DNA from: Geopsychrobacter electrodiphilus DSM 16401
GTDB taxonomy: Bacteria; Desulfobacterota; Desulfuromonadia; Desulfuromonadales; Geopsychrobacteraceae
Direction of reading: 5' to 3'
Assembly (NCBI RefSeq): GCF_000384395.1
Contig: NZ_ARWE01000001.1
Coordinates: 434,001-498,000 of the forward strand
DNA length: 64,000 bases
Position numbers and translations under genes: made by a program. This document shows, one piece after another, positions 43,265 through 60,162 of the stretch (position 1 is its first letter; every line of letters begins with the position of its first letter). Under the pieces are notes generated by a model. The model was not told the origin of the DNA and ran no database searches. It was given only the letters and a program-made list of their open reading frames with translations.

Positions 43265-43275
43265 AGAAAAACTCC

Positions 43276-44796
43276 TTAAAGGTCAAACCCGCAGTAAGAG
43301 AGGTTAAAGCTCTTGTTGCATAGCGGAAAATCCGAAATCTGTTCGCCGCGCAGGACCATTGCCAGGCCGTTCCAGTTATGAAATGAAGGGTCGACAATCT
43401 TGTAGCGCGCCAGTTTGCCCTGCTCATCCGTGAGCCCGACATGCACGATTTCACCGCGCCAGCCTTCACAGATAGAGACAGCCAGTGAATTTGGTGTCAG
43501 GGGCCCGAGGGGGGCACGGGTCTCACTGGCGACCAGCTTGTGGAGGGACTCACGGATCAGGTCATGCGAGGCGTAGATCTCGCGGCGGCGGACGTTGGCG
43601 CGGGCAAAAACATCGCCATCGGTTTCAATCACCGGGGTGTCGAATCGGACGCGGCCGCTGCCAAAGGGATGGTGCAGGCGGGCATCACGGATCAAGCCAC
43701 AGGCGCGGGCGGCGACGCCGACCATGCCCAGCTCTTCGGCCGTGTCGGTCGACAGCTTGCCGACACCTTCGAACCGTGCCAGCACCGATGGAGCGTCGAA
43801 GCAGAGTTCGATGGCGCCGCGGGTTTCAGGTTCGAGGATATCCAGCCGCTTGAGGATTTTGTCGCGCAGCGCATCATCCAGCCCAAAGCCGACACCGCCC
43901 GGTCGTACCAGCCCGCGACCGAAACGACTGCCGCAAAGGTCGGCTGTGAGGTTGAGATAATCACCGCGCAGTCGGCCGCAGAAGGAGGCGGTCGGCAGGA
44001 AACCGGTGTCGCCCGCCAGGGCCCCGATATCACCGACATGATTGGCCAGGCGTTCCAGCTCCAGCGCAATGGAACGTATGCCATAGGCGCGCGGGGGGGC
44101 TTCAACTCCGGCCAGACTCTCAAGCACCTGCGCGTAGGCCTTGGTGTGACCGATACTGGTATCGCCTGCCGCGGCTTCGATCTGATAAATGCTGGAGGGG
44201 TAGGGGCCGCCAACCAGCTGTTGCTCCAGCCCGCGGTGCTGGAACCCGAGGGAAATCTCGAGGCTCAGCACCTCTTCGCCGTGGCATTGAAAGCGGAAAT
44301 GCCCTGGTTCAATCACCCCGGCATGCACCGGTCCGACCGCGACTTCGTGAACCTCTTCCCCCTCAACCCGATAAAATTCCATATCACCGGGGATCGGGTG
44401 TTTTTGCGGATCCCGGCCCCAGATGTCGGCAGCCTCGACCCAGCTGTTGTGAAAGCGCACCGGTTTGAGCCAGGGGTGCCCAGCGGGGCGGATGCCGAAC
44501 TGCTCGGCAATCTCACGTTCGAACAGGTGGAGCTGCGGGCAGTCCGGGGTGAAAGACGGGTAGCTGCTGCCGACGCGCGTGTGGAGCAGCGCCAGCTTTC
44601 CCTGCCAGTCGTGGGAGAGGATGGCAAAGAGATCAAGCCCTTCGCTGGTCGGCTGGCCGAAAAAGCTGGAGACTCGCGCGCCAGCGGCGATCTCTTCGAG
44701 CAATGACTCACGAAATTGGCCAAAGTCGAGACGCGGCAGCTCGCTCAAAGGGACCGATGCGCCATGCCGAAAGCGGATAATTTTAGCCCGGTTCAT
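43276..44796 (-). CDS. ehrL: Ehr complex A large subunit (NuoCD/HycE-like) lacking Ni-Fe ligands
   Basis: A 506-residue protein. The N-terminal ~125 residues resemble NuoC (HLFEREIAEQFGIRPAGHP), and the rest resembles NuoD/HycE (VGPVHAGVIEPGHFRF near residue 155). Where NiFe hydrogenases have the first CxxC (RxCGxC), this protein reads IEAAAGDTSIGH (residues ~207-217). At the C-terminus, in place of DPCxxC, it has DFPLCNKSFNLSYCGFDL with C493 and C502 nine apart. A Ni-Fe centre is therefore not expected, and the reaction is unknown; it may couple ferredoxin or quinone chemistry to ion pumping. It overlaps ehrD by 4 bases. Confidence 0.88.
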   Translation of the reverse strand: MNRAKIIRFRHGASVPLSELPRLDFGQFRESLLEEIAAGARVSSFFGQPTSEGLDLFAILSHDWQGKLALLHTRVGSSYPSFTPDCPQLHLFEREIAEQFGIRPAGHPWLKPVRFHNSWVEAADIWGRDPQKHPIPGDMEFYRVEGEEVHEVAVGPVHAGVIEPGHFRFQCHGEEVLSLEISLGFQHRGLEQQLVGGPYPSSIYQIEAAAGDTSIGHTKAYAQVLESLAGVEAPPRAYGIRSIALELERLANHVGDIGALAGDTGFLPTASFCGRLRGDYLNLTADLCGSRFGRGLVRPGGVGFGLDDALRDKILKRLDILEPETRGAIELCFDAPSVLARFEGVGKLSTDTAEELGMVGVAARACGLIRDARLHHPFGSGRVRFDTPVIETDGDVFARANVRRREIYASHDLIRESLHKLVASETRAPLGPLTPNSLAVSICEGWRGEIVHVGLTDEQGKLARYKIVDPSFHNWNGLAMVLRGEQISDFPLCNKSFNLSYCGFDL

Positions 44797-46217
44797 GGGT
44801 GCACCTCCAGTAGGTCGGCCGCCTGTTGCAGCGCGTGTTGCAAGGGGGCGGGGATGTAAACCCCGATCAGCAGAATCAACAGGATCAAGATCAGCGGTGC
44901 AATGTAGAGCATAAAACTATCCTTAAACTCCGGGGTTTTGTGCTCCGGTTCACCCTGAGTTGCCGCCAGTACGGTGGTCCCCATGCCGATAAACACGGTC
45001 GCCAGGAAGATCAGCATCACCAGACCGATGATCATGTGGCCGCTGCTGAAGACCCCGCGCAGGATGGTAAATTCACTCATAAAGGGCCCGAAGGGTGGCG
45101 ACCCGGTAATGGCGAGAAATCCGGCCAGAAAAATTGGTCCGGAAATCGGCAAGGCTTTAAGCGCGCCACGCACTTCAGAGAGGCGTTTACTGGCGAAGGC
45201 CCGTTGGATATTGCCCGCTGCCAGAAACAGACCCCCTTTGGTCAGGGCATTGTTGATCAGATGCAGCATGGCGCCGAAGGTGGCGATACCGCCAATGCCG
45301 ACACCGATGGCTAACAGACCCATATGTTCCACCGAAGAGTAGGCCAGCATCCGCTTGATATCAGGCTGGCGAATCATGAAGATCGAGGCCACCAGCAGCG
45401 AGAGCAGGCCCATCCCGAGCAACGCCTGACGGGCCATATCCCCTTCACCGGCGGCGGTCATCAGTTGAACACCACGCAGAATCGCAAGAAAAGCGACGCT
45501 GGTCAGACCACCGGCGAGCAGGGCGCCGACCAGGCCCGGAGCTTCGCCGTAGGCATCAGGCTTCCAGCTGTGCAGGGGTGCAAGTCCCATCTTGGTGCCA
45601 AACCCGACCAGCAGAAAGACGAACCCGGCGTGCAGCCAGGGCTTGCTGAGGGTGGTGGCGACCGTAAGCAGGGTGTCGAATTGCAGACTGACCGGCGCAC
45701 CGCCACCCAAGGCGGCATAGGCGATGAACAAGATGCCGAGCATCGCCAGGGCGATCCCGACTGAGCAGATCAATAGATATTTCCAGGTTGCTTCAATCGA
45801 AAGCCGACTACGATTGTAATAGATCAACGGCGCACTGGAGATGGTCGTCGCTTCAACCGCCAGCCACATGACGCCCATGTGCCGTGCGACGACCGCCAGG
45901 GTCATGGCGCTGAGGAAGACCAGCAAGCAGGGGACCATGACTTTGTTCCCGCGATCACGGCGCAGATTCAGATACCCCACCGCGTACACGCCACAGGCGA
46001 AGAACAGCAGACTGGTCACCAGCAGCACCAGCCTCGACAGGGCGTCCAGTCCGATCCAACTGCTTTCGAGCGGGAAACGGCCGAGGCAGAGGAGCACCGA
46101 CAGCAGCAGATGCAGGCCGCTGCTGAGTGGCAGCAGCCAGGAACGGGCCTGGTACCAGGGGATCGCCAGGCTGATAGCCGCTGCAATAAGAGGAAAGATA
46201 ATCAGAACTACGAGCAT
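44793..46217 (-). CDS. ehrD: Ehr complex A antiporter-like membrane subunit (HyfF/NuoN-like)
   Basis: A 474-residue protein with about 13-14 hydrophobic segments, related to Mrp-antiporter subunits of complex I and hydrogenase 4. Features include a glutamate in a membrane helix (MWLAVEATTISSAPLIYYN near residue 120), the lysine-bearing VGFGTKMGLAPLHSWKPDAYGEAP near residue 205, and IKRMLAYSSVEHMGLLAIGVGIGG near residue 289. These charged membrane residues form the proton path in the family. It lies between ehrC (4 bases) and ehrL (overlap of 4 bases), so it is co-translated. Confidence 0.87.
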   Translation of the reverse strand: MLVVLIIFPLIAAAISLAIPWYQARSWLLPLSSGLHLLLSVLLCLGRFPLESSWIGLDALSRLVLLVTSLLFFACGVYAVGYLNLRRDRGNKVMVPCLLVFLSAMTLAVVARHMGVMWLAVEATTISSAPLIYYNRSRLSIEATWKYLLICSVGIALAMLGILFIAYAALGGGAPVSLQFDTLLTVATTLSKPWLHAGFVFLLVGFGTKMGLAPLHSWKPDAYGEAPGLVGALLAGGLTSVAFLAILRGVQLMTAAGEGDMARQALLGMGLLSLLVASIFMIRQPDIKRMLAYSSVEHMGLLAIGVGIGGIATFGAMLHLINNALTKGGLFLAAGNIQRAFASKRLSEVRGALKALPISGPIFLAGFLAITGSPPFGPFMSEFTILRGVFSSGHMIIGLVMLIFLATVFIGMGTTVLAATQGEPEHKTPEFKDSFMLYIAPLILILLILLIGVYIPAPLQHALQQAADLLEVHP

Positions 46218-46221
46218 CGTA

Positions 46222-46860
46222 TTATTCCTTCAGGGCGGAGAGACGTTCCGTATCGAGCGAGGAAAATTCACGGTTGATCTGGTTGAGCACAATTCCCATG
46301 ACGAAGACGCCGACGAGTAAGTCGAGCAACACCCCGCCTTCGACCATCAGGGGCAGGGCTTCACTTAGCAGGACACCGATAATAAAAATCCCGTTCTCGA
46401 GCATCAAATAGCCCAGCACCTGGGTGATGGCTTTGCGCCGTGTGATCAAAAGCAAAAAACCGGCAAACATGGTGGCCAGAGCGACCGGGACGTAGAGCCC
46501 GTCGTGGTGTTCAGCGACCAACGGCAGAAAATCTGCAAACAAAAAAGCGCCAGCCGTGGTCAGGGCGCCCAGGATCAAGGTTGGGACAAAGCCGATGATC
46601 GGTTCGACCTCGCGGCGGATACGGACTTCGCGGACGGCGCGCAGCAGCAGCCAGGGGATGAGAATTCCTTTGAAACAAAAAGCTCCGGCCGACAGCAGGA
46701 TGGAGTGAAAACTGAGCCCGTGGGTTAAAAGCGGCAGCAGGGCCAATAATGCGCCCTGCAGCGCGACGATCCGGATACAGGCGACGAGTCGAGAGCTGCC
46801 GAGGGTAAAGAAATTAATCAGAATCACCGTCAGCAACAGGAGGTTTGTGAATTCCATCAT
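46222..46860 (-). CDS. ehrC: Ehr complex A HyfE-like (NuoK-containing) membrane subunit
   Basis: A 212-residue protein with about six hydrophobic segments. The second half (ITRRKAITQVLGYLMLENGIFIIGVLL, residues ~141-167) corresponds to NuoK-type helices carrying a conserved glutamate. The sequence matches HyfE of hydrogenase 4 in length and layout. Two ATGs (46860 and 46857) lie together, with GGAGAAG upstream. It would contribute part of the membrane-arm proton channel. Confidence 0.83.
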   Translation of the reverse strand: MMEFTNLLLLTVILINFFTLGSSRLVACIRIVALQGALLALLPLLTHGLSFHSILLSAGAFCFKGILIPWLLLRAVREVRIRREVEPIIGFVPTLILGALTTAGAFLFADFLPLVAEHHDGLYVPVALATMFAGFLLLITRRKAITQVLGYLMLENGIFIIGVLLSEALPLMVEGGVLLDLLVGVFVMGIVLNQINREFSSLDTERLSALKE

Positions 46861-46912
46861 CGGTTCTTCTCCGCCAGTATAGATATTCTGATGTTAGCGT
46901 TTTGAGAGCGTT

Positions 46913-47827
46913 TCATCGCAGCACCAACACCAGGGCGAAGATCGATAACAGCGAGGTTCCGATCAACATCTGCGGGATACGCGGTAAACGCAGGCGCGCC
47001 ATGAACGATTCGACTACCCCGATCAGTACTGCAATCCCGGCCAGTCCGGCGAGAAAAATCAGGGCGTCAAGCGCCCACCAACCGGTTTGCCAGGGGAGTG
47101 CCAGGCGCACCAACAGGGCCCCTAAAACCATCATTTTGAGCGAGGCGCCGTAAAGAATCATGCCGAGGGCCGGGCCACTGTGATCGAGCACCATCACCTC
47201 ATGAACCATGGTGAGTTCCAGGTGGGTGTTGGGATCATCGAACGGAATGCGTGAATTCTCGACCAGCATAACCACAAAGAGGCACACCAGAATCAACCCA
47301 AGTGAGGCGCCAGCCGGACTGCGCCAGGCTGCCAGCAGATGGGAGCCGAACAGGGTGTTGAGCGAAAGGCCATCGGAGATCCGGGCCAGGACCAGCAGCG
47401 CAAAAAGCACCGTCGGTTCAGCCAGACAGGAGAAAGTCACTTCACGCACCGCCCCCATCCCTTCGAAACTCGAACCGGTATCGAGCGCTGCGCTGGCGGT
47501 AAAGAAGCGTGCGAGGCCGAACAGGTAAACGAACAAAATCAGATCACCTTCAAAGCTGACCGGGGCCTGCAGCGCCCCAAAAGGTATCAGCAGCGAAGCC
47601 AGGAGCGGAACCACCAGGCCGACCACCGGACCGGTCAGGAAAACCCAGGTGGTAGTGCGACTGAAAACAAATCCCTTACGCCATAGTCGGGCGAGATCGT
47701 AGTAAAGCTGCAGCACCGGGGCACCGATACGGCCACCGAATATGGCTTTGGTCTTGGTGATAATCCCTGGCAACAGCGGGGCGAAGAGGAGCAAAAGAAC
47801 GAGATGCAGAACCAGCTTGCCGATCAC
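46913..47827 (-). CDS. ehrB: Ehr complex A NuoH/HyfC-like membrane subunit
   Basis: A 304-residue protein with about eight hydrophobic segments. The family signature NSRIPFDDPNTHLELTMVHEV (about residues 205-224) is intact, with the acidic residues that link the iron-sulfur arm to the membrane arm. Further NuoH-like features are LQLYYDLARLWRKGFVFSR near residue 39 and GMGAVREVTFSCLAEP near residue 122. The start is GTG at 47827 with GGAG upstream, 13 bases after ehrA-2. Subunits of this type hold the quinone-like cavity in complex I; whether a quinone binds here is unknown. Confidence 0.88.
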   Translation of the reverse strand: MIGKLVLHLVLLLLFAPLLPGIITKTKAIFGGRIGAPVLQLYYDLARLWRKGFVFSRTTTWVFLTGPVVGLVVPLLASLLIPFGALQAPVSFEGDLILFVYLFGLARFFTASAALDTGSSFEGMGAVREVTFSCLAEPTVLFALLVLARISDGLSLNTLFGSHLLAAWRSPAGASLGLILVCLFVVMLVENSRIPFDDPNTHLELTMVHEVMVLDHSGPALGMILYGASLKMMVLGALLVRLALPWQTGWWALDALIFLAGLAGIAVLIGVVESFMARLRLPRIPQMLIGTSLLSIFALVLVLR

Positions 47828-47840
47828 GATGGTTCTCCTT

Positions 47841-49808
47841 TCACAGCACGAATAAGGCGAGGAGCGCGATAACGGTCAGGGCGACATAAAGCAGGTAAGA
47901 GGCTATGCGTCCGTTTTGAATCAGGGCCCTTAGTTTGCGACAGAACCAGGCAATGCCTTGGCCCCCCGGGAAAAGAATACGGTCCAGAACTGCGTCGGGG
48001 GTGTGACTTTCAAAGCCGGACGCCGCAGCAAACAGGCCGGTGACCTTGCCGCCGTGACGTTCGCTCAAAAGGCCGAAATTAAACAGCTGCACGAGCATGT
48101 CAGCAAAAGAGCTGGCCGTATATTGCATGCGTGCCGTGGGAAATTGATAGCCGCAACCCCAGGTGCCGACATTGTGTGGCGCTGTGCGGCTGCGGCGCTT
48201 GAGCCAGAGGGCCAGGGCGCCGAGCAGAGCCACCAAAAGCCAGCCGATGAGACCGATGCGGCCGAGGGGCGCCAGGTTGCTCCCCAGAACTGTGCTCTCG
48301 GCGCTTCCGCTCCATTCGACAACGGCGGCGCGCAGCAGTGGAACCAGGGTGGTCGGGAGCAGCCCGATCCAGGCACAGGCGACCAACAGCAGTGCCATGG
48401 GTGCGAGCATACTGCCTGGGGCTTCATGCGCCTGGGCTGCGGCTGTGCTGCGTGGTTCACCGAGAAAGGTGATGCCGAACACCTTGACAAAGCAAGCGAG
48501 CGCTAATGCGCCGATTAGCGCCAAGGCCGGGGCTGCCAGGACAGCCATGCCCAGGGCCGAGGCGGGGTGCCTCAAGGGTTGGAAGGAGCCGAGATAGATC
48601 AGCCATTCACTGATAAATCCGTTGAATGGGGGGAGTCCACAGATCGCTACGGCCGCACCCAGAAATAAGGTCCCGGTCCAGGGTTGTGACTTGAGCAGTC
48701 CGCCATAACTGTCGATATCGCGGCTGCCGACCGCATGGATCACCGAGCCGGCACTCAAAAACAGCAGGGACTTAAACAGCCCGTGGTTGGCGACGTGGAG
48801 CAGACAACCGGCCAGACCAAGGGCCACCAGTGCCGGGACATGGTAGCTGCGACCGAGCAGGGCCAGCCCCAGACCGAGGGAAATAATGCCGATATTTTCG
48901 ACGCTGTGGTAGGCGAGCAGTCGCTTGATGTCATGCTGAGCCAACGCCAGGGCAACACCCATGATCCCCGAAATGATCCCGAGCAGCAGCATGGTCCAGC
49001 CCCACCAGGGCGGAATCTCGACAAAGAAGGAGGTAAGCCGCACCAAACCATAGATACCGGTTTTGATCATGACACCGGAGAGGATCGCCGAAGCATGGCT
49101 CGGTGCAGCGGCGTGGGCACCGGGCAGCCAGATGTGCAGCGGCATTATCCCGGCCTTCATGCCGAACCCGAACAAACCGAGCAGAAACATCAGACCAGCG
49201 CTTGCGGCGGTCAGGGTTCCGGCGGCGGGGAACATCAGGGATCCTGATGCTTGATCGAGCAGGGCGAAGAGGGCGAAGAGGGCCAGAGTGCCACTGTGGG
49301 TGGCGATCAGATAGATAAATCCGGCGCGGCGGACATCCTCTTTGTGATCTTCGGTGGTGATCAGAAAATAGCCGGCCAGAGCCATCACTTCCCAGCCCAT
49401 CAGAAACAGCACGCCGTTGCGGGACGACAGGAGCAGAATCATCGATCCGCTGAGCAGGCCATAAAAGAGCCGCAGTTTACGGCCGTTTGCCGGATTTTTA
49501 CTCTGGGGCCAGTAGCTCAGACCATAAACGGCGCCGGTTGCGACAACCAGAAAGAGCGGCAGCAGAAAGGTGGCAGTGATTGCGTCGAGTCGCAGAGCCA
49601 AGGCCCCGCCTGGAATGGTCCAAGGCAGCTCCAGGCGCATTTCGTGGCCCGAGACCAGGAGCAGGCCGACGGCAATCACGCCACTGACACAGCCGACCAG
49701 GCTCATCAGGCAGGCCAGCCGTTCCCCGCCGGTCCCCTGTCGAGAACAGAAGAGTCCGGGCACACCGGCCAACGAAGTTAGTAAGATCGCCCCTATAAGC
49801 CAGATCAA
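47841..49808 (-). CDS. ehrA-2: Ehr complex A NuoL/HyfB-like ion-pumping subunit, second copy
   Basis: A 655-residue antiporter-like protein. I place the start at TTG 49808: GGAGGAGG lies 6 bases upstream, it is 1 base after the previous stop, and the upstream in-frame residues are unlike the family. Key membrane motifs are FLMGWEVMALAGYFLITTED (residue ~120), FGMKAGIMPLHIWLPGAHAAAP (residue ~205), and [17 protein letters not shown] (residue ~290). The C-terminus keeps the HyfB-type segment with ARMQYTASSFADML. It is adjacent to a related gene upstream; the two probably occupy different places in the membrane arm. Confidence 0.87.
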   Translation of the reverse strand: MIWLIGAILLTSLAGVPGLFCSRQGTGGERLACLMSLVGCVSGVIAVGLLLVSGHEMRLELPWTIPGGALALRLDAITATFLLPLFLVVATGAVYGLSYWPQSKNPANGRKLRLFYGLLSGSMILLLSSRNGVLFLMGWEVMALAGYFLITTEDHKEDVRRAGFIYLIATHSGTLALFALFALLDQASGSLMFPAAGTLTAASAGLMFLLGLFGFGMKAGIMPLHIWLPGAHAAAPSHASAILSGVMIKTGIYGLVRLTSFFVEIPPWWGWTMLLLGIISGIMGVALALAQHDIKRLLAYHSVENIGIISLGLGLALLGRSYHVPALVALGLAGCLLHVANHGLFKSLLFLSAGSVIHAVGSRDIDSYGGLLKSQPWTGTLFLGAAVAICGLPPFNGFISEWLIYLGSFQPLRHPASALGMAVLAAPALALIGALALACFVKVFGITFLGEPRSTAAAQAHEAPGSMLAPMALLLVACAWIGLLPTTLVPLLRAAVVEWSGSAESTVLGSNLAPLGRIGLIGWLLVALLGALALWLKRRSRTAPHNVGTWGCGYQFPTARMQYTASSFADMLVQLFNFGLLSERHGGKVTGLFAAASGFESHTPDAVLDRILFPGGQGIAWFCRKLRALIQNGRIASYLLYVALTVIALLALFVL

Positions 49809-49809
49809 A

Positions 49810-51801
49810 TCATCCTCCTCCCTGTCCGCCGGCCCATAGACTCCAGGCCATAAGCACTGCGCTCGCGATGAAAATATAAACCAGGTAGATCGACAACTTC
49901 CCTTGTTGCAGCCAGCGTAGTCTCTGACAACGGTCGGCAAGGGCAACGAAAAGAGGGTTTAGTATGCGGATCAAGACGGGATCTGGGGAGGTCTGCGACA
50001 GGTGGCCTTCCTCCGGGAAAACCCCGCTGACATTCTTGACGTGTAGCTCAGGGCGCATGATTTTAGGAAGCAGGTGCCAGGCCGCAAGTTCGGAAAATCC
50101 TTCGCCGGTATACGCCATGCGCGGCGTGGGGAAGCGGAAAGCGCAGGCCCAGGTGGCCGCCTGTGCCTGTGGGCGCAAGTTTCTCAGTAAAACAAGAACT
50201 CCGGTGAAAACTCCCAGTCCGAGCAACAGCAGCAGTCCCCAGTGTCCCAGCGGAGCAACCGCCAGGGCGAGCTCAGGCCCGACCGTCACACCTGATACTT
50301 GTGCTAACGCTGGCGTCAGTAAGCGCAAGGCTCCCTGAGGATAGAGGCCGATCGTCAAACAGCCCGCAAGTAATGCCGCCATGGCGAGCAGCATCCGTGG
50401 CGCCGCCTCATGGGCATGGGCCGCCGCCGCGGTGCGCGGTTCCCCGAGCAGACAAATGCCGATCAGGCGCGAAAATGTCACCAGAGCCAGCGCACCCACC
50501 AGACCGAGCAGGCCGAAGAGCAAAAGTGGCATGAGAGCAGCAAAGCCCCCCAATGCGGAGCCCGCTTTGGCCAAACCAATATAAATCAGCCATTCACTGA
50601 CCAGGCCGTTGAGGGGTGGCAAGGCTCCGATGGCCAAACTGCCCCCGATCCACAAAAGTCCGGCCAGTGGCATGCGCTTGAGCAGGCCACCCATCATGTT
50701 CATGTCACGCGTGCCGGTGGCGTGCAGCAGGGTGCCGGCGCCGAGGAACATGACCCCTTTGAAAAGCGCATGATTCCACAGGTGGAGCATGCCTCCGGCA
50801 TAAGCAAAGAGCGCCAGAGTCGGATGTCCCTCGGCGGCGGCGACCAGACCAAAGCCCAAACCAAGGAACATGATGCCGATGTTTTCGACGGTTGAATAGG
50901 CCAGACAACGTTTGATGTCGCGCTGCTGCGCGGCCAGTGAAATCCCGTAGAGGGCACCGCCTGCTCCGAGCAGAGCCATCAGCCAGCCCCACCAGATCGG
51001 AGCGGGGGGGAGAAAACTGATAACCCGCAGAATGCCGTAGATACCGGTTTTGATTAATACCCCGGACATCAGGGCCGAAACATGGCTGGGGGCTGCCGGA
51101 TGAGCATTAGGCAACCAGATATGAATCGGAAAGAGTCCGGCCTTGACGCCGAAACCGAACAGCGCCAGCAGATAGAGCAGCGAGGCCATGCCGAGGGGGA
51201 GTTGCGCCAAGGGTCCGAAGTCGCTGAAGTCAAGGCTGGGACAATAGCTGCCTGCCAGAATAAACATGGCGACCAGCAGCATCATGCCGAGGTGGGCGGC
51301 CAGCAGGTAGAGCCAGGCGGCCTTGCGCACCTCTTCCAGATGATGGTCCCAGGCAACCAGAAAGAAGGAGGAGATGGTCATGGCCTCCCAGGCGGCCAGA
51401 AAGAGCAGCGCATTGGCGGCGGTGGTCACCAGCAACATGGCGATGGCCATGATGTTGAAAAAGAACCAGTGCGGCGCCAGTGGCCGCTGCTGACCCTCGT
51501 GGGCCAGATAGGGCCCGGCATAGAGGGCACAACAGAGGGTAATGATAGAGATCGGCAGGACGAAAAAGGCCGCTAACGGATCGAGTCGCAGGGTGAAGGC
51601 GCCCCCGGGAACCGACCAGAGAGCGGAGTAGCTGAGCGCCTGCCCGCTGAGCAGAACCTGAAGTGCAATATAGCCTGAGATAAGGGTTGCGCTAACCGCC
51701 GAGAGGGTCCCGATCAGGGTCGCCAGCGATGATTTTCGCGCGGCGATGGAGAGCAAACTACCGACAAGTAAAATGAGTAAAGCCGTTATAAACAGGGTCA
51801 T
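49810..51801 (-). CDS. ehrA-1: Ehr complex A NuoL/HyfB-like ion-pumping subunit, first copy
   Basis: A 663-residue protein with about 15 hydrophobic segments. It has FLAAWEAMTISSFFLVAWDHH (residue ~128), FGVKAGLFPIHIWLPNAHPAAPSH (residue ~215), and RDIKRCLAYSTVENIGIMFLG (residue ~295), which contain the membrane glutamate and lysines of the proton path. The C-terminal segment (TPRMAYTGEGFSEL) parallels that of ehrA-2, so the two genes arose by duplication. It starts 156 bases after the regulator gene and heads module A; the ribosome site is weak. The next gene begins 1 base after its stop. Confidence 0.87.
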   Translation of the reverse strand: MTLFITALLILLVGSLLSIAARKSSLATLIGTLSAVSATLISGYIALQVLLSGQALSYSALWSVPGGAFTLRLDPLAAFFVLPISIITLCCALYAGPYLAHEGQQRPLAPHWFFFNIMAIAMLLVTTAANALLFLAAWEAMTISSFFLVAWDHHLEEVRKAAWLYLLAAHLGMMLLVAMFILAGSYCPSLDFSDFGPLAQLPLGMASLLYLLALFGFGVKAGLFPIHIWLPNAHPAAPSHVSALMSGVLIKTGIYGILRVISFLPPAPIWWGWLMALLGAGGALYGISLAAQQRDIKRCLAYSTVENIGIMFLGLGFGLVAAAEGHPTLALFAYAGGMLHLWNHALFKGVMFLGAGTLLHATGTRDMNMMGGLLKRMPLAGLLWIGGSLAIGALPPLNGLVSEWLIYIGLAKAGSALGGFAALMPLLLFGLLGLVGALALVTFSRLIGICLLGEPRTAAAAHAHEAAPRMLLAMAALLAGCLTIGLYPQGALRLLTPALAQVSGVTVGPELALAVAPLGHWGLLLLLGLGVFTGVLVLLRNLRPQAQAATWACAFRFPTPRMAYTGEGFSELAAWHLLPKIMRPELHVKNVSGVFPEEGHLSQTSPDPVLIRILNPLFVALADRCQRLRWLQQGKLSIYLVYIFIASAVLMAWSLWAGGQGGG

Positions 51802-51957
51802 GTCTTCTGCTCAACCTCAATAAAGAGATGGCGGTACAAAAACTCACCAACTGCTGTGTTGCCGTAATTTGTCGCGCGGCTGCGACGTAAATGAGGCTGT
51901 CTTATTGCTCGATAAATAGTGCACCTCGCCTTTAAAGAGGACGGTTCTCCATCCATT

Positions 51958-52638
51958 TCAGTTCGTCTTGATGAAACTTTCAGCCTGGGTCAAGGCGGCA
52001 AAGATTTTTTCGCGGCTCCCTTCCTGCAGGAGAGTGTCGCGAAAGTCCGAATTGTGCAGCACAAAACTCAGGCGCGAGAGCAGGTGCAGGTGTGAGCGCA
52101 GATTCGGTGCGATAATCATAAAGAGGATCGAGACCGGTTGGCCATCGAGGGCGTGAAAATCGACCGGTTCTTCCAAAAAACAGAGTGTCACTGTCGGACG
52201 CAGGACATTCAACAGACCAGGACTGCGCGGGTGGGGTATGGCAATGCCGGAACCGGTGGCGGTTGGCGCGAGTTGTTCGCGGGTAATCAGCATCTGGGTC
52301 AGGTGACCCAGGTCGATATCTTCCGGCACCCGCAGGTGGCCCACCGCATCGGTCAAAACCTCTTCGCGGGTTTTACCTTCAACGCGGTAAAATACCCCGC
52401 CGGTTTCAAGAGCATCTGTCAGTGAGGGGAGCGGCTGGTCGTCGGCTTCGGGCTCTTCATAGGCGTCCCCCGCTACGCCTCTACGGCGTGCCGTTGCCCA
52501 CTCCAATAGTTCCGCCCGGTTGAAGCGGTAGCTTTCGTGGACCTTATAGGCGGGAACGATATCCTGCTTGATCCAGCGATAGATGGTCTTTTCCGAAACC
52601 GATAGCAGCCGCGCTGCATCTTTGACATTAAGGTTCAT
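51958..52638 (-). CDS. Regulator fusing an excisionase-type HTH to a PTS EIIA(Ntr)-like domain
   Basis: A 226-residue protein. Residues 1-52 form an excisionase/MerR-like DNA-binding domain (VKDAARLLSVSEKTIYRWIKQ, then RFNRAELLEWA). Residues ~80-222 form a fructose/nitrogen-type EIIA domain with the phospho-accepting histidine in SGIAIPHPRSPG near residue 147. Such a protein could read the phosphorylation state of a PtsP/NPr or fructose-type relay and act on DNA. It lies exactly between the two Ehr modules on the same strand, so it is the prime candidate regulator of one or both. A minus-strand promoter candidate precedes it. No other PTS gene is in the window. Confidence 0.82.
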   Translation of the reverse strand: MNLNVKDAARLLSVSEKTIYRWIKQDIVPAYKVHESYRFNRAELLEWATARRRGVAGDAYEEPEADDQPLPSLTDALETGGVFYRVEGKTREEVLTDAVGHLRVPEDIDLGHLTQMLITREQLAPTATGSGIAIPHPRSPGLLNVLRPTVTLCFLEEPVDFHALDGQPVSILFMIIAPNLRSHLHLLSRLSFVLHNSDFRDTLLQEGSREKIFAALTQAESFIKTN

Positions 52639-52672
52639 TGTTCACCTTCTGCTATCATGTGGCCCCCTTATT

Positions 52673-52714
52673 GGACAATTTAGGACATTACGCTGGAAAA
52701 AATAAGCTTGTCAA
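52673..52714 (-). promoter_or_regulatory. Candidate promoter and tandem TGTCC sites before the EIIA-HTH regulator
   Basis: On the minus strand TTGACA (52709-52714) is followed after 18 bases by TAATGT (52685-52690), a weak -10 box. Overlapping and following it, TGTCC occurs twice, 10 bases apart (52683-52687 and 52673-52677), one helical turn, as expected for a tandem binding site of a repressor. The regulator ATG is about 35-50 bases further on. The -35 match is good and the -10 match poor, so this is tentative. Confidence 0.35.
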
Positions 52715-52767
52715 GCGGGAAGTCCGGTTTTTGCGGGTTGAGAATAGTTTTTTAACGGACTGAATTT

Positions 52768-53277
52768 TCAACGTTCTTGCAAGAGTTCGAGGATTCCTTG
52801 TAAGAGTTGGAGCGGGGTGGGGGGGCAGCCCGGGATGACGGCATCGACCGGGAGGACGTTTTCAAGCGCCCCGCAGCTGGCGTAGGAAACGCCGAATTCT
52901 CCGCCGTTGGCTGCACATTCGCCCATGCCGACCACCAGTTTGGGTGCAGGAGTCGCTTCATAGGTGCGCAGGAGTGCGGCCTGCATATGACGCGAAACGG
53001 GACCGGTGATCAGCAGCAGATCTGCGTGGCGCGGTGAGGCGACAAAGTGGATGCCGAAGCGTTCGATATCGTAGAAACCGTTATTAACCGCATGCATCTC
53101 CAGTTCACAGCCGTTACAGCTGCCGGCATCAACCATGCGGATCGCTAGCGAACCCGCAAACTTGCGCGCAATCTCCTGTTGACAGGCGCTCCCCAGCTTT
53201 GCGACCCGCTGGTCTTCGGTTGGCAGGGGTTCGGTCAGCTGGCCGGTTTTGCGGATTTTATTGAAGATGCGGAACAT
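52768..53277 (-). CDS. Ehr complex B small subunit (NuoB/HyfI-like), no ferredoxin extension
   Basis: A 169-residue protein with the N2-type cluster cysteines C54, C57 (GSCNGCELE), C121 and C151 (PGCPP). The FGIHFVASPRHADLLLITG stretch is near-identical in layout to the small subunit of module A. Unlike module A, the first 50 residues contain no iron-sulfur motif, and no separate ferredoxin gene exists in module B. The electron donor would then have to dock directly or be encoded elsewhere. It is the last gene of module B; the regulator gene starts 129 bases downstream. Confidence 0.87.
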   Translation of the reverse strand: MFRIFNKIRKTGQLTEPLPTEDQRVAKLGSACQQEIARKFAGSLAIRMVDAGSCNGCELEMHAVNNGFYDIERFGIHFVASPRHADLLLITGPVSRHMQAALLRTYEATPAPKLVVGMGECAANGGEFGVSYASCGALENVLPVDAVIPGCPPTPLQLLQGILELLQER

Positions 53278-53292
53278 AACTCAAAATTCCCT

Positions 53293-54897
53293 CTATAGAT
53301 CGTGCCCTGAGTATGACCCATTGACCGATTTATTGCAGACCGGAAAGTCGGGCACGATGACATCGTCCATCATCTCTTCCAGCGCCAGCCAGTTGATGGC
53401 GCTGGGATCGCGGGGGGCGTAGCGCAGCACTGTTCCGTCGGCACCGAGTCTGACATAGGCCAGGGTTTCGCCGCGCCAGCCTTCGATCAGTCCCAGGCCC
53501 TGCGCCTCGCGGCCGGGAAGGGAGCAAACGGTCGCAAGCTCCCCGGCGGGAAGCTTGCGCAGTAGCTCTTCGATCAATCCTAGTGACACCAGAATTTCGT
53601 CACCACGGACCCGCACGCGGCGGGCGACGTCGCCTTCAATGTAGGCTGGAACTTCGACCTTTAAGCGGTCGTAGGGTGGATAGGGGGCGTCGCGGCGCAG
53701 ATCATACTGATGGTTACTGGCGCGGCCGACGTAGCCGAGGGCGCCGAGTCTTGCGGCTTTTGCAGGGGAGAGCAGCCCGGTGTCGCGCAGACGATCCTGC
53801 AAGGAGGGATATTCGAGCAGCAGTGGCATCAGCTCTACAATTTCGATGCGCAAGGTGCCGCAGGACATGAGCTGCAGTTGAACCTGTTCGGTGTTTAAAT
53901 CGCCGGCGACTCCGCCCGGCCGCAGATAATCCATCATCAGCCGGTGACCGAAGACATGGGCGTTGTCGCGCTGCCATAATTCCCGCAGGCGCGTCATCTG
54001 CACCTGGGCGAAGGCGAAGCCGACATCGTTGCAGACGGCGCCAATATCCCCCAGATGGTTGGCGATCCGTTCGCGTTCGCAGGCGATTGCTCTCAGCGCC
54101 AGAGCCCGCGCTGAGGGGGCGACCCCCAGCGCCTGTTCGACAGCCTGACAGGCCGCCCAGCTGTGGACGACTGTGCTATCGCCCGAGACCCGTCCCGCCA
54201 GGCGGATCAGCCCCGCCAGGTCACGGCCGACGGCGATCTTTTCTATTCCCTTATGCACATAACCCAGATGCTCTTCGAGACGCAGGATCCTCTCACCGAC
54301 CGCCTGAAAACGGAAATGGCCCGGTTCGATGATGCCAGCGTGAACGGGACCGACCGGGATTTCGTAGACTCCGGAGCCTTCGGTGGCAGCGAAGGGGTAA
54401 TCACAATCGGGCGGTGTTCGTTCGGTGGGGCGTCCGGCGCGCGGGAAATCGACGCGCAAGGGAAAGTCGCCTTCGCTCCAGGCTTGATGTCGCAGCCAGC
54501 GCCGGGGATCGGGATGCGCCAGCAACTGCACGCCCAGCATGTCCTGCAGAACCCGCTCCTGTCGTGAAGCGCCTGCAAAAAAAGGCGTTTGAGCCGGGAG
54601 CTGGGGATCCTCTTCGCTCACCTGGGTCTGCAGCAGCAGCTGGCCATCACCGCCCACAAAGAGACTGAAAATCAGGATATTTGGCGGGCAATGTTCACCC
54701 CAGCAGGTTGAAAATCGCAGTTTTTCATCCCGCGCCAGTTCGGCGGCCTTCCCCCAGTCACAGCTGGAAATCTGCAAACTGAGACAGCCGGGGTGCAGGG
54801 CTTGAGACTCGGTGCTGGCGACTCCGATGGCGCGCAGTGCCGCGGCAAATTCACGGGTTGTCCCGCTGGGGATCTGGGGCGGCTGGCGTTTACTCAT
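53293..54897 (-). CDS. Ehr complex B large subunit (NuoCD/HycE-like) lacking Ni-Fe ligands
   Basis: A 534-residue protein from the ATG at 54897, which overlaps the preceding stop as ATGA. The N-terminal third is a degenerate NuoC-like domain; the rest is NuoD-like (VGPVHAGIIEPGHFRFQAVGE). At the first Ni-Fe position it reads LAGRVSGDSTVVHS, without the CxxC; at the C-terminus it reads DFPVCNKSVNGSYSGHDL, with only one cysteine. No Ni-Fe centre can form. Compared with module A, the second C-terminal cysteine is also lost, leaving only the NKSxNxSYxGxDL frame, which must have another purpose. Confidence 0.88.
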   Translation of the reverse strand: MSKRQPPQIPSGTTREFAAALRAIGVASTESQALHPGCLSLQISSCDWGKAAELARDEKLRFSTCWGEHCPPNILIFSLFVGGDGQLLLQTQVSEEDPQLPAQTPFFAGASRQERVLQDMLGVQLLAHPDPRRWLRHQAWSEGDFPLRVDFPRAGRPTERTPPDCDYPFAATEGSGVYEIPVGPVHAGIIEPGHFRFQAVGERILRLEEHLGYVHKGIEKIAVGRDLAGLIRLAGRVSGDSTVVHSWAACQAVEQALGVAPSARALALRAIACERERIANHLGDIGAVCNDVGFAFAQVQMTRLRELWQRDNAHVFGHRLMMDYLRPGGVAGDLNTEQVQLQLMSCGTLRIEIVELMPLLLEYPSLQDRLRDTGLLSPAKAARLGALGYVGRASNHQYDLRRDAPYPPYDRLKVEVPAYIEGDVARRVRVRGDEILVSLGLIEELLRKLPAGELATVCSLPGREAQGLGLIEGWRGETLAYVRLGADGTVLRYAPRDPSAINWLALEEMMDDVIVPDFPVCNKSVNGSYSGHDL

Positions 54898-56360
54898 AAT
54901 ACCCCCCGGCCGACCACCATGATTGTCGCCTGATTCAGCCAGTCGACGAGCACCCCGGGGATCGAGATGCCGAGTAATAAGACCAGCAGCAGGTGGAGAA
55001 TGACGGGCCACATATTGGCCGGCACCGCGACCTGACCGGCCGGTGGCTCACCGAAAACCATTGGTTGAATGTGGCGAAACAGCCCGGTGAAGGCGATAAC
55101 CAGGCCACTGAGCAGCGGGATGACCAGCCAGGGCCAGCTCTTGATGGTGGCGGTAAAGAGCAAAAACTCGCTGGTAAAAACGCCGAAGGGCGGAAACCCG
55201 GCGATCGCGACGGTTGCGATCAGCAAGCACCAGCCCACCACCGGCTGGGTCTTGATCAGGCCACGGATCCCGGCGATGCTCTGGGTTCCGGCCACATGGG
55301 CGGCATGACCGACGGTGACAAAGATAGAGGATTTGGTCAGGGAATGCACAATCATGTGCAGCAGCGCGCCGAAGGTCGCGAGCGGGCCGCCAATGCCAAA
55401 GGCAAAGGTCATCAGCCCCATATGTTCAATCGATGAATAGGCGAACATCCGTTTGACGTCGCGCTGGTGGTGCAGCAACAGACTGGCGACGCTAAAGGAG
55501 AGCAGTCCGAACCCCATCATCATCTGCCCGGCCAGATGGTTTCCCAGGGCCGGGTCGACAATCATCTTGAAACGCACCACCGCGTAGAGCGCGATATTGA
55601 GCAGCAGCCCGGAGAGGATCGCCGACATCGGGGTCGGCCCTTCGGAGTGGGCGTCGGGCAGCCAGTTGTGCAGCGGGACCAGTCCGACCTTGGTGCCGTA
55701 ACCGACCAGTAAAAAGGCGAAGGCGATGGTCAGCACCGCCGGTTCCAGCTGGCCGGCATGTTCATGGAGCACACTCCAGAGCAGGGTATCATCGCTGCCG
55801 GGCAGAATCCGTTCGGCGGCAAAGTAGATCAGCACCGTACCGAATAACGCCTGCGCGATGCCGACGCCGCAGAGGATAAAATATTTCCAGCCTGCCTCGA
55901 TCGATTCGGGGGTGCGATAGAGGGAGACCAGCAGCACCGTGGCCAGGGTCGCGCCCTCGATGGAGACCCAGAGGATGCCGAGGTTGTTGGTCGAAAGGGC
56001 CAGCAGCATGGTGAACAGAAAACCCTGATACATGGCGTGGTAAAGACGCATGCGGCCATCATCGACCCGGCCGATCTTGACCTCGTGCGCCATGTAGGGG
56101 CCCGAGAAGATCGAGGTCGTCAGGCCGACAAAGGCATTGAGCAGGATCAGATAGACGTTGAAGGCATCGATATAGAACAGCTTGCCGGGGCTGAGCATCG
56201 GACCCTGTTCAAATATATTGAACGCCAGTTGCAGGGCGGCGATAAAGGTGGCCATACACAACAGGGTATTGATCCACCCGGCCCGCGGCCAATGGCCGAC
56301 CAGCGCCAGCAGCAGGGTCCCGATCAGTGGCAACAGCAGGCAGAGATAGAGCGCATTCAT
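54894..56360 (-). CDS. Ehr complex B antiporter-like membrane subunit (HyfF/NuoN-like)
   Basis: A 488-residue protein with about 14 hydrophobic segments, paralogous to the HyfF-like subunit of module A. Charged membrane motifs are ILWVSIEGATLATVLLVSLYR (residue ~129), VGYGTKVGLVPLHNWLPDAHSEGPTP (residue ~222), and DVKRMFAYSSIEHMGLMTFAFG (residue ~307). These keep the glutamate and lysine used for ion movement in the family. It overlaps its neighbours by 4 bases on both sides (ATGA junctions), which indicates tight co-translation. Confidence 0.87.
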   Translation of the reverse strand: MNALYLCLLLPLIGTLLLALVGHWPRAGWINTLLCMATFIAALQLAFNIFEQGPMLSPGKLFYIDAFNVYLILLNAFVGLTTSIFSGPYMAHEVKIGRVDDGRMRLYHAMYQGFLFTMLLALSTNNLGILWVSIEGATLATVLLVSLYRTPESIEAGWKYFILCGVGIAQALFGTVLIYFAAERILPGSDDTLLWSVLHEHAGQLEPAVLTIAFAFLLVGYGTKVGLVPLHNWLPDAHSEGPTPMSAILSGLLLNIALYAVVRFKMIVDPALGNHLAGQMMMGFGLLSFSVASLLLHHQRDVKRMFAYSSIEHMGLMTFAFGIGGPLATFGALLHMIVHSLTKSSIFVTVGHAAHVAGTQSIAGIRGLIKTQPVVGWCLLIATVAIAGFPPFGVFTSEFLLFTATIKSWPWLVIPLLSGLVIAFTGLFRHIQPMVFGEPPAGQVAVPANMWPVILHLLLVLLLGISIPGVLVDWLNQATIMVVGRGVL

Positions 56361-57034
56361 TTATCCACCTCTGTTAGGCGGTTCAGGTGATCAACGTTGA
56401 GCGAACCGATGCCGGAACGGATCTGAAAAAAGAAGATGCCGAAGAGGATCGCGGCGACCAGCACATCGAACGCCACCCCCAACTCCACCACCATCGGCAT
56501 GCCGTAGGTTGAAACGACGGCGGCAAAAAAGAGTCCGTTCTCCATCGACATGAAGCCGATCACCTGGGCGACCGCTTTACGCCGGGTGATGATCATCAGC
56601 ATGCCGATGAGGATGATCGCCAACGAAATGGCAATGGTGTTGCGCGTCGAGAGCAGTGACAGCTCGCGAATGGGGAGTACCACATAGTAGCTGAACAGGG
56701 TCAGGGCCCCTGCGCCGATCATAATCAGCGAGGCGCCACCGACCGTCTCAACCTCGCGCCGGATATCGAGGCGTACGACCAAACGTCGCAATTGCCAGGG
56801 GATGAAGAACACCTTGAGCGCGAGGGTCAGTCCGGCCGAAATGAACAGGTGATGACGTCCCGAACTTGTCGCCATCAGGACTGTGGCGGCAAACAGCAGC
56901 GCGCCCTGCCAGGCAAAGGTGTGAATCAGGCTGACCATGCGCGTCTGTGCTAACAGCAGAAACGAGGTGAACAGAATCAGCGCCGCCAGGGTCAGGATCA
57001 GTTGCTCGCTCAGACTTAAGGCTTCGATTCCCAT
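56357..57034 (-). CDS. Ehr complex B HyfE-like membrane subunit
   Basis: A 225-residue protein from the ATG at 57034; the longer frame to 57310 lies inside the upstream gene and is not used. It has about six hydrophobic segments, with ITRRKAVAQVIGFMSMENGLFFAAVV near residues 153-178 forming the NuoK-like part with a membrane glutamate. It parallels the HyfE-like subunit of module A in size and order. It begins 5 bases after the HyfC-like gene. Confidence 0.83.
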   Translation of the reverse strand: MGIEALSLSEQLILTLAALILFTSFLLLAQTRMVSLIHTFAWQGALLFAATVLMATSSGRHHLFISAGLTLALKVFFIPWQLRRLVVRLDIRREVETVGGASLIMIGAGALTLFSYYVVLPIRELSLLSTRNTIAISLAIILIGMLMIITRRKAVAQVIGFMSMENGLFFAAVVSTYGMPMVVELGVAFDVLVAAILFGIFFFQIRSGIGSLNVDHLNRLTEVDK

Positions 57035-57039
57035 ACGCG

Positions 57040-57984
57040 TCAGCGGACCTCCAGGATGATGTGGCTCAACATGCCGAGCAGCGAGAGGATGAAGGCCAGC
57101 CCAAGGAGTTGTGGCACGCGGAACAGGCGCATTTTGGCCAACCCGGTTTCGGCTATGGCCAGGGCCAGACCGAGGAGCAGGAGTTTGACCGTCAGTATGA
57201 GCGTGGCGAAGAGGAGAGCGGCCGGGGCAAAGGTGAGCGCGACGCCCCAGGGGAGGAACAGATTTACCAGCAGCACGGCGTAGAGCATCAGCTTGAGCAT
57301 GGCGCCCCATTCCATCAGCGCCAGATGCCGACCGCAGTACTCAAGGATCATCGCCTCGTGAATCATGGTCAATTCCAGATGGGTGGCCGGGTTATCGACC
57401 GGGATGCGTCCGGTCTCGGCCAGCGCCACCAGCACCAGCCCCATGGCGGCGAAGATGAAGGAGGGGTAGAGGTGAAACGGGCGCTGCAGCAGGGTGCTGA
57501 TCATGCTCGAAAGATTGGTGCTCGACACACTCATCGCCAGAGTGAAAACCGCCAGCAGCATGGCGGGTTCGGCCAGGGATGAAATTGTCACTTCGCGCGA
57601 GGATCCCATCCCCCCGAACGCGGTGCCGATGTCCATCCCGGCCAGGGAGAGGAAGAAACGGCCGAGAGCAAAAAGTCCCACCAGAACAATCACATCGGCC
57701 AACGCCGAGGTTGGCAGGCCGACCGCTAGCAGCGGCACCACCGAACAGGCAACCGCCGTGACACTGAAAACAATGTAGGGGGCAATGCGGAAAATCGGCG
57801 AGGCATTCCGGGCGAGAACGATCTCTTTGCCGAAGAGTTTATTTAGGTCGCGGTACGGCTGCCAGGGTGGCGCGCCGCGGCGGTTTTGCAATTTACACTT
57901 GACCCATTTGACCCAACCGCTGAACAGCGGTGCGGCGGCGATGAAGACCCCGGTCTGGACGATTGCCAGCAACCAGCCGTTCAT
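57040..57984 (-). CDS. Ehr complex B NuoH/HyfC-like membrane subunit
   Basis: A 314-residue protein from the ATG at 57984, overlapping the upstream stop by 4 bases. It has about eight hydrophobic segments and the intact family motif TGRIPVDNPATHLELTMIHEAM (about residues 209-228). GMGSSREVTISSLAEP near residue 130 and RDLNKLFGKEIVLAR near residue 44 match the module A paralogue. It links the iron-sulfur arm to the antiporter subunits. Confidence 0.88.
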   Translation of the reverse strand: MNGWLLAIVQTGVFIAAAPLFSGWVKWVKCKLQNRRGAPPWQPYRDLNKLFGKEIVLARNASPIFRIAPYIVFSVTAVACSVVPLLAVGLPTSALADVIVLVGLFALGRFFLSLAGMDIGTAFGGMGSSREVTISSLAEPAMLLAVFTLAMSVSSTNLSSMISTLLQRPFHLYPSFIFAAMGLVLVALAETGRIPVDNPATHLELTMIHEAMILEYCGRHLALMEWGAMLKLMLYAVLLVNLFLPWGVALTFAPAALLFATLILTVKLLLLGLALAIAETGLAKMRLFRVPQLLGLAFILSLLGMLSHIILEVR

Positions 57985-59987
57985 ACCAGCACCCAGAGGA
58001 TAAAGATCAGGGTGAAGAAGGAGTACGCCAGATAGACGCGGATATTCCCCCCCTGGATCATGGCCGTGCGTTTGGCGGCGCTCAGTACCAGGCTGCCGAG
58101 GGGAAGATAGATTTTCTGCCAGGCCCAATCGCCGATCTGCAACAGATAGCGTTGCGGGTGCTTGCTCGTTGCCGCTACAAGCTGTTCTTTGATCGGCCAG
58201 ACGGGTCCGAAAATGCGCCGGATCGGCATGCTAAAGGCGGTTGCGGTGTATTGGGTGCGTGCGTTCAGGGTGCCGAAGCCACAGTCCCAGGCGGCGCCAC
58301 GCCGCATCGGCAGGCGCCGCCGCTGGGGGTGAAACCATAACCAGGCCAGCAGCCAGGCTAACAGGAGACCCAGCAGGACCATGGGCGCACCATAAGAGGC
58401 GGTTTCAGGCGCGACCGGGGTCAGCCACAGCCAGCCGTGGGCGCTTGCTTCGGGGAGCCCTTCACCGAGCAGACTCTGGGAAATGGAGGTCAGCGCGCCG
58501 ATGGTCCAGGTCGGCAGAACGCCAAACAGCAGGCAGCAGGCGGCCAGAATTATCTGGGCAAATTGCATTCCGAACGTGACTTCGTGGGCCTGCTCGGCAA
58601 CAGGGTTACGCGGCAAGCCGAGGAAGACCACGCCGAAAACCTTGACAAAACAGGCCGCCGCCAATGCACCGGTTAAGGCGAGAGCAGCCGCAGCCACCGG
58701 GATCAGGGAACCGAGCACTCCGCTTTCGAGCACTGAACCCTGCAGGGCGGCCTGAAAGGTCAACCATTCCGAGACAAAGCCGTTGAAGGGGGGCAGGGCC
58801 GAAATACTGATGCAGCCGATCAGAAAGCAGCTGGCGGTGACCGGCATGCGGCGAATCAAGCCGCCCATCTGCTCCATATCATGCTGACGGCTCTGCTGCA
58901 GAATGGCACCGGCACCGAGGAACAGCAGGCTTTTGAAGAGGGCATGGTTCAGACAATGATAGAGTGCCGCGACCAGGCCCAGCGCGGCCAGGGCCGGATG
59001 ACCGGTGCCAGCGAAGATCATCGAGAGCCCGAGCCCGATATAGATGATCCCGATGTTTTCAACGCTGTGATAAGCCAGCAGACGTTTGAGGTCGTGTTGC
59101 ATCAGCGCATAAAGTACCCCTAACAGCGCTGATGCGGCACCGATTATCAGGGCCAGTACCCCCCAGGTCCAGTGAATCTCACCCAAAAGATCATAGGTGA
59201 AACGGATAAAACCGTAGATCGCCACCTTGAGCATCACCCCGGACATCAGCGCCGAGATATGTGAGGGCGCCACCGGATGCGCCTGAGGCAACCAGACATG
59301 TAAAGGGACGATCCCCGCTTTCATGCCGAAACCGACAAAGGCCAGCAAGAAGGCGATGGTCTGCCAACCACTTGAGAGCTGTGCCGCAGCCATGGCCGTG
59401 AAACTGAAATCGGTGCCGAATCCGGCCAGGACCCCGTAACCGAGCAGGATACACAGGCCACCGACCTGAGCCATCAACAGATAGAGAAAGGCGGCACTGC
59501 GATTTTCGACTTTGTGATGCTGGTAGGAGACCAGAAAATAACTGGAAACAGACATCAACTCCCAGCTGAACATGAAGGAGAAGGCGTCTGCCGTCAGCAA
59601 TAACAAGAACATACTGGTGACAAACAGGCCACTAAAGATCGTCAGCGGCGCGAGAGGTTGTTCGGCGCTTTCGAATTCACGGGAATAGCCGGGTCCGTAG
59701 CAGGCAATAACGGCAGTGACCAGACCAACAATCACCAGGAAAAAACCGGCGAGTGGGTCGAGCTGGATTTGCGCATGCAGCCAGGGCAGCCCGACGGGAA
59801 GGGTTTCATGCAGGGGATGGGGGTGAAGGAGTGCCATCCCTCCTGCCACGAGTGCGCTTAATCCGGCCAGGCCAAGCAGAGTGAATGCCAGCAGCTTTGA
59901 CAACCGCGGCCAGTGTGCCAAAAGAGGAGGGATAAATGCCGAGAGCAGCGCAAAGGTGACAGCAATCTTGGCGATAAACAGTGGCAC
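57981..59987 (-). CDS. Ehr complex B NuoL/HyfB-like ion-pumping subunit
   Basis: A 668-residue protein with about 15 hydrophobic segments, starting at GTG 59987 with AGGGGGT about 9 bases upstream. Motifs are [21 protein letters not shown] (residue ~133), [24 protein letters not shown] (residue ~220), and [21 protein letters not shown] (residue ~300). It is the only subunit of this type in module B, whereas module A has two, so module B might move fewer ions per cycle. It is the first gene of the 17.5-kb minus-strand block and is divergent from rnhA; the shared promoter region is 59988-60162. Confidence 0.87.
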
Positions 59988-60162
59988 GTCTGGACCCCCT
60001 AAATTTCAGCGATCACAACGAAAGAAGAGTGTTCCGTTGCGCCGGCAGGGTATTCTAGAACGCTATTTGAGGACTGTCAAATGTCCAGAGGCCGGGGAGT
60101 TTGCTCGCTGCCGAAGGTCTATGCTATCTTCCCGCTCAAAAAATGAAAGGGACAGACGCCGC

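Follow-up and report, generated by a model that had tools for sequence, protein, structure and literature searches.

A helix-turn-helix–EIIA fusion protein as the probable dedicated regulator of Ehr gene clusters

What does a gene that joins a DNA-binding domain to a domain of the phosphotransferase system (PTS) do next to operons for complex-I-like energy-converting machines? The question is raised by a gene on the minus strand of the window, i.e., the whole 64-kb stretch of DNA analysed here (64,000 nucleotides), which a first-pass annotation had described as an excisionase-like helix-turn-helix (HTH) fused to an EIIA domain and placed exactly between two Ehr modules, whose complexes it would tie to carbon or nitrogen status. 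Comparison of this locus with its counterparts in other genomes suggests that the HTH-EIIA fusion is most likely a dedicated regulator of the Ehr machines at the start of whose clusters it sits. In its full form, to which we give a probability of about 70%, this reading holds that the fusion is a BldC-like binder of direct repeats that controls its own operon, probably as a repressor, with PTS-Ntr phosphorylation as its input. The features on which the argument is built are the following.

42512-51801, minus strand: Ehr module 2, downstream of the fusion gene, the predicted target operon.
51958-52638, minus strand: gene of the HTH-EIIA fusion regulator, 226 aa by translation of the open reading frame; HTH at residues 1-52, linker at about 53-72, EIIA at 73-225, phospho-histidine H136.
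52673-52687, minus strand: predicted operator TGTCCTAAATTGTCC, a TGTCC direct repeat with a 10-bp period, 49 nt 5' of the ATG.
52685-52690, minus strand: inferred -10 box TAATGT, assigned from its spacing (18-nt spacer) and overlapping the operator.
52709-52714, minus strand: -35 box TTGACA of the fusion promoter.
52768-59987, minus strand: Ehr module 1, which precedes the fusion gene; the operator is not predicted to control it in the window.
60052-60080, minus strand: sigma-70-like promoter of module 1, TTGACA-N17-TAGAAT, with no operator.

In the frame of the fusion, the plus strand of 51958-52638 is interrupted by stops and the minus strand is open. Two domains of the encoded protein are recognised above the Pfam cut-offs, HTH_17 at residues 3-52 (E 1.1e-14) and PTS_EIIA_2 at residues 81-218 (E 1.6e-26, with 93.5 bits against the PTS EIIA model PF00359, whose curated cut-off is 27), and the NCBIfam model "excise" matches residues 5-49, also above its cut-off. 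The motif SGIAIPHP carries H136 at the phospho-histidine position, in a GxxxPH context; together with the domain matches, it bears out the earlier description of an excisionase-like HTH and an EIIA domain encoded by one gene. The AlphaFold model (mean pLDDT 91.5, built with 78 homologues) has a winged HTH at residues 1-50, a linker of lower certainty at about 51-70 and the EIIA domain at 73-225, and the best PDB matches of the EIIA part in Foldseek are PtsN structures (3urr, TMt 0.83). Two more familiar identities were rejected: the protein is not PtsN proper, as it scores 57.9 bits against the NCBIfam PtsN equivalog, whose cut-off is 138.7, nor is it a PRD-type PTS regulator, as Pfam and NCBIfam give only the HTH and EIIA_2.

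Both flanking modules are made of complex-I/hydrogenase-4-like subunits and lie on the same strand as the fusion (Pfam, NCBIfam); module 2 encodes two HyfB/NuoL-like proteins, NuoH-, HyfE- and HyfF-like proteins, and large and small subunits. The large subunits of modules 1 and 2 have no CxxC pairs for a NiFe site at the expected places, and both modules are therefore of the Ehr type and not hydrogenases, according to the published definition that separates the two (PMC6349859). Given the short gaps between the fusion gene and module 2 and the absence of a detectable terminator between them, the fusion is most likely co-transcribed with the downstream Ehr module.

Sequence comparison shows a strong and ancient linkage between the fusion and ehr genes. 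In tblastn searches with the window's proteins as queries and loci from other genomes as targets, module-2-type genes were found immediately downstream of the fusion in Desulfuromonadales, Phycisphaerae, Lentisphaerae, Verrucomicrobia and a Myxococcota MAG. More generally, an Ehr module, be it module 1 or module 2, follows right after the fusion in most of the loci fetched from five lineages (Desulfuromonadales, Geobacterales, Verrucomicrobiota/Lentisphaerae, Phycisphaerae and Myxococcota), so that the conserved linkage which the first-pass annotation had proposed to look for in a genome survey does exist. Among 107 genomes of the window's order, in raw counts that ignore kinship, the main-subfamily fusion occurs in 47 and EhrL in 47; 40 genomes have both, seven the fusion only, seven EhrL only and 53 neither, and one genome counted as fusion-only (G025) does carry a module-1-type Ehr. 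The fusion is present in 129 of the 214 genomes of the window's class, and ehr genes lie beside it in 19 of 20 fetched Geobacterales loci, a lineage name inferred from the class grouping. In the phylum of locus L014 (Lentisphaerae/Verrucomicrobiota), a match was obtained in 24 of 195 genomes, with Ehr directly downstream in 17 of 25 fetched loci. The position exactly between two Ehr modules, literally true in the window, is mostly a local arrangement: the fusion is ahead of module 1 instead in L023, L030, L031, L032, L052 and L082, and in L030 it is flanked by both modules, module 1 being the downstream one and module 2 the upstream one. Since the fusion precedes either type of module across genomes, the rule is that of a leader gene of an Ehr operon and not that of a gene between two modules; the fusion belongs to the downstream module, whichever type that is.

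A matching putative operator adds evidence for control at the DNA. Upstream of the fusion genes, a common pattern consists of TTGACA and, after 21-22 nt, TGTCC-N5-TGTCC, which is located some 41-52 nt ahead of the ATG. Operator scores of at least 9/10 were obtained in 45 of 59 upstream regions (0.26 expected from shuffles) and perfect operators in 36 of the 59 (0.04 expected). In 34 loci whose proteins are less than 80% identical, both TGTC cores are invariant, and the operator flanks are near background except for the -35 box and the start region. The combination of -35 box and operator is also specific, as a scan of the 107 genomes returned 34 sites, against none in the reversed control, 30 of which are directly 5' of a fusion gene. 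Within the window, the first-pass annotation had put forward three stretches as candidate binding regions; one of them, 52639-52767, carries the conserved operator, whereas 51802-51957 and 59988-60162 have none. Other one-mismatch matches in the 64 kb are at chance level, and the single operator is located on the 3' side of module 1, ahead of the fusion gene and module 2. For the window, direct control of the two modules was thus rejected, and the idea that the fusion ties them together is not supported here. With its own promoter devoid of an operator, module 1 is not predicted to be controlled by the fusion; at the very most, its transcripts could extend into the fusion operon. A wider regulon in the window's genome was likewise rejected: exact repeats number six, versus five in the reversed control, only the one at the fusion has a -35 box, and no promoter was found at the exact repeat at position 1569351.

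These elements can be assembled into the following mechanism. The N-terminal winged HTH, of the MerR/excisionase type, would bind the two tandem TGTCC(A) half-sites at 52673-52687 head to tail, and the bound site would span the -10 region of the fusion's own promoter. The assigned -10 box matches the sigma-70 consensus at three of six positions; because the operator overlaps it, repression of the operon, rather than activation, is the most likely outcome, an argument in favour and not a proof. Binding would in this manner repress an operon that includes the fusion gene itself (negative autoregulation), whose mRNA would read through into the downstream Ehr genes. As for the input, EI or the GAF-containing EI-Ntr (PtsP) would charge HPr, and HPr~P would in turn phosphorylate H136 of the EIIA-Ntr-like domain and thereby alter DNA binding or oligomerisation, which would link PEP supply and the nitrogen/carbon state to the ion-pumping complexes.

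Several observations bear on this input. The window's genome encodes HPr, EI and a GAF-EI of the PtsP type, so that phosphate donors for the fusion exist, as well as a separate PtsN in an rpoN-hpf-ptsN-hprK-rapZ cluster (names given by eye from translations). PTS donors were found in all ten genomes checked, and in one genome ptsP immediately precedes the fusion (L065, genome G106). H136 is kept in 72 of 73 main-subfamily members (72 of 78 homologues overall), and its GxGIAIPH context is maintained over highly divergent main-subfamily sequences. From this conservation, the donors and the ptsP neighbour in G106, we infer that phosphorylation at H136 is the probable input. The same conservation and the ubiquity of donors in the genomes checked speak against an unlikely, though not negligible, alternative in which the EIIA domain would be a ligand-binding or oligomerisation module that works without phosphorylation, the regulator sensing something else. 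This alternative gains from members that lack the residue: the histidine is lost in all five copies of a distant SulP-linked HTH-EIIA subfamily (L054-L058), and the fusion at L073:3427-4101 (genome G036) has Arg in place of the phospho-histidine (AVPRPRNPA) while being otherwise normal, Ehr-linked and preceded by a perfect operator. Phosphorylation is therefore not essential for every family member, and its universality in the HTH-EIIA family was rejected on account of the distant subfamily.

Two side observations concern PTS-related genes. In G106, a 761-aa protein encoded upstream of ptsP and the fusion (L065:15324-17606, minus strand) combines ferredoxin and [FeFe]-hydrogenase large-subunit C domains with a sigma-54 activator and a Fis-type HTH; located beside ptsP, the fusion and Ehr, it is possibly a hydrogen or redox sensor, to judge from its domains. 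In the window's genome, a 719-aa protein that looks by eye like an amino-acid permease has a C-terminal EIIA (G000:C1:2739909-2740307, L003), the third EIIA in this genome.

Fusions that have no Ehr partner usually have a SulP permease downstream. This is the case, directly downstream, in five Ehr-less genomes of the order (L018, L019, L021, L022 and L024), the SulP identity being confirmed by Pfam in two of the five loci. In L024, from the window's genus, SulP and the fusion stand between Ada/GDH genes and RNase H, the chromosomal site that is taken by Ehr-fusion-Ehr in the window. The distant HTH-EIIA subfamily, 24-28% identical, is also 5' of SulP in five of five fetched loci (3419-4084 in L054). 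In another Ehr-less locus, the fusion is followed by a DUF1275 protein (L020:8972-9709). On a tree of the fusions, the partner labels are clustered, with ten changes.

Further arrangements were seen around individual fusions. A DUF1275 membrane protein is encoded between the fusion and Ehr at L053:1685-2434, L071:9532-10269 and L083:10773-11522, and gaps of matching size separate the two in L065, L067 and L070. In one Geobacterales locus (L100:2127-4208), the gene after the fusion encodes not Ehr but a membrane protein of 415 aa, judged by eye to be DUF401-like. In L025 and L026 (9150-10970), two divergent fusion genes stand back to back, each with an operator-like site, and the one that points away from Ehr has no recognised partner.

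All these partners are membrane ion or anion systems (Ehr and SulP, with single cases of DUF1275 and DUF401-like proteins), as would be expected if the HTH only autoregulated and the EIIA domain, freed or phosphorylated, bound the neighbouring membrane complex, be it Ehr or SulP. Such an action has precedent in EIIA-Ntr (PtsN) proteins, which act on TrkA, KdpD and YcgO in the regulation of potassium transport (reviewed in PMC13104625). We nonetheless regard this explanation as decidedly unlikely, since the four remaining sites of the 107-genome scan (in G052, G056, G064 and G074) belong to Ehr promoters that lack a fusion in cis, which indicates that the DNA element goes with the Ehr genes as such. 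The operator copy in G074 belongs to module 2 itself, those in G056 and G064 are on a promoter divergent from the fusion, and that in G052 is ahead of a DUF1275 remnant and an Ehr gene. A related observation is that the Ehr genes of G064 are preceded by a truncated fusion remnant, MSFSVKDVAQLLSVPGKTIYR*, behind a perfect operator (L077:3015-3200, minus strand), with an intact fusion of another clade located divergently from it.

Control at the DNA by the fusion also finds support in its recognition helix, with which the operator co-varies when sequences are compared. The operator is present with 45 of 52 YRW recognition helices and with none of 25 diverged helices (raw counts, kinship ignored). 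In one Geobacterales locus (L100), the old KTIYRW helix and the operator are both present. What speaks against the proposed mechanism is that Geobacterales fusions mostly lack a TGTCC operator, though ehr linkage is kept (20 fetched loci), and that two YRW-helix relatives in other phyla (L015 and L016) have no operator. The distant SulP-linked subfamily, whose helix is similar, has TGGACA repeats 10 bp apart, TGGACA being the reverse complement of TGTCCA, i.e., the same half-site. It is consequently very improbable that the direct repeat is another regulator's site and that the fusion merely shares the promoter, a view left some room by the fact that contact between fusion and operator is deduced from sequence: the site follows the fusion's recognition-helix sequence, recurs as the same half-site in the distant subfamily and, in the 107-genome scan, occurs only at fusion or Ehr promoters. 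Even less credible is that the linkage is a side effect of cassettes that move horizontally and on which the regulator only hitch-hikes, as the SulP-fusion pair at the window's Ehr-fusion-Ehr site in L024 and the fusion homologues in unrelated phyla might suggest, but the promoter-operator region is far more constrained than its surroundings and the operator is lost where the fusion is absent (missing in six of six fusion-less Ehr promoters inspected, L028 retaining one half-site).

A search of the open-access literature returned no description of HTH-EIIA fusions, of SulP with EIIA or of Ehr with EIIA, which is weak evidence of novelty. The Chlamydia protein ptsN_2 (CT291), annotated as PTS IIA plus HTH, is an EIIA-HTH fusion and serves as a lead only; to our knowledge, no Ehr linkage is to be expected there. 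On balance, we think it rather probable that HTH_17-EIIA proteins form an undescribed family of PTS-domain regulators, found in at least five lineages, that have their own direct-repeat operator and place ion-translocating Ehr complexes or SulP anion permeases, and not sugar uptake, under a phosphorelay acting at the DNA. If so, PTS control, known for sugars and potassium, would reach complex-I-like energy converters as well. We know of no established substrates for Ehr complexes; a dedicated regulator with a defined operator would offer a handle on when these complexes are made, its PTS domain suggests that they are switched by PEP/nitrogen state, and the same class of regulator at SulP permeases hints that Ehr and SulP answer one need.

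The window's modules belong to the same complex family as the Ehr cluster of Geobacter sulfurreducens (GSU0739-GSU0745), whose abundance is higher on formate than it is with hydrogen (PMC7894505); no named regulator of that cluster or of Ehr complexes was encountered in the papers found. On the protein side, the fusion shares with EIIA-Ntr (PtsN) the EIIA fold, the phospho-histidine motif and the top Foldseek matches, but differs from it in having a DNA-binding domain, and the genome's own PtsN is separate, in the rpoN cluster. For the HTH, a single-sequence search of the PDB gave nothing convincing; a profile search did better, with RacA at 9e-5 and, weakly, BldC at 0.0065 and 0.01. BldC, with its MerR-like winged HTH, binds head to tail to direct repeats whose 5-bp tracts recur once per helical turn (PMC5859096), and tandem half-sites of the same orientation, one turn apart, are present at the predicted target promoter as TGTCC-N5-TGTCC. 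The likeness is one of repeat spacing and, at most weakly, of HTH profile; BldC, however, is an HTH alone, has the half-site AATTxxxxC and controls development in Streptomyces. The fusion also resembles the PRD regulators (MtlR, the mannose activator, the LicR type), which bind DNA, contain an EIIA-like domain and are controlled by their phosphorylation state, as described for MtlR (PMC3217849). While EIIA in such activators is already known, no account of the HTH_17-EIIA architecture, the TGTCC-N5-TGTCC operator or the Ehr/SulP targets turned up in the open-access literature searched. PRD regulators combine two PRDs with an EIIB-like domain and act on sugar operons, chiefly in Firmicutes, whereas the fusion has one HTH_17 and one EIIA, no PRD, and Ehr or SulP as its predicted target.
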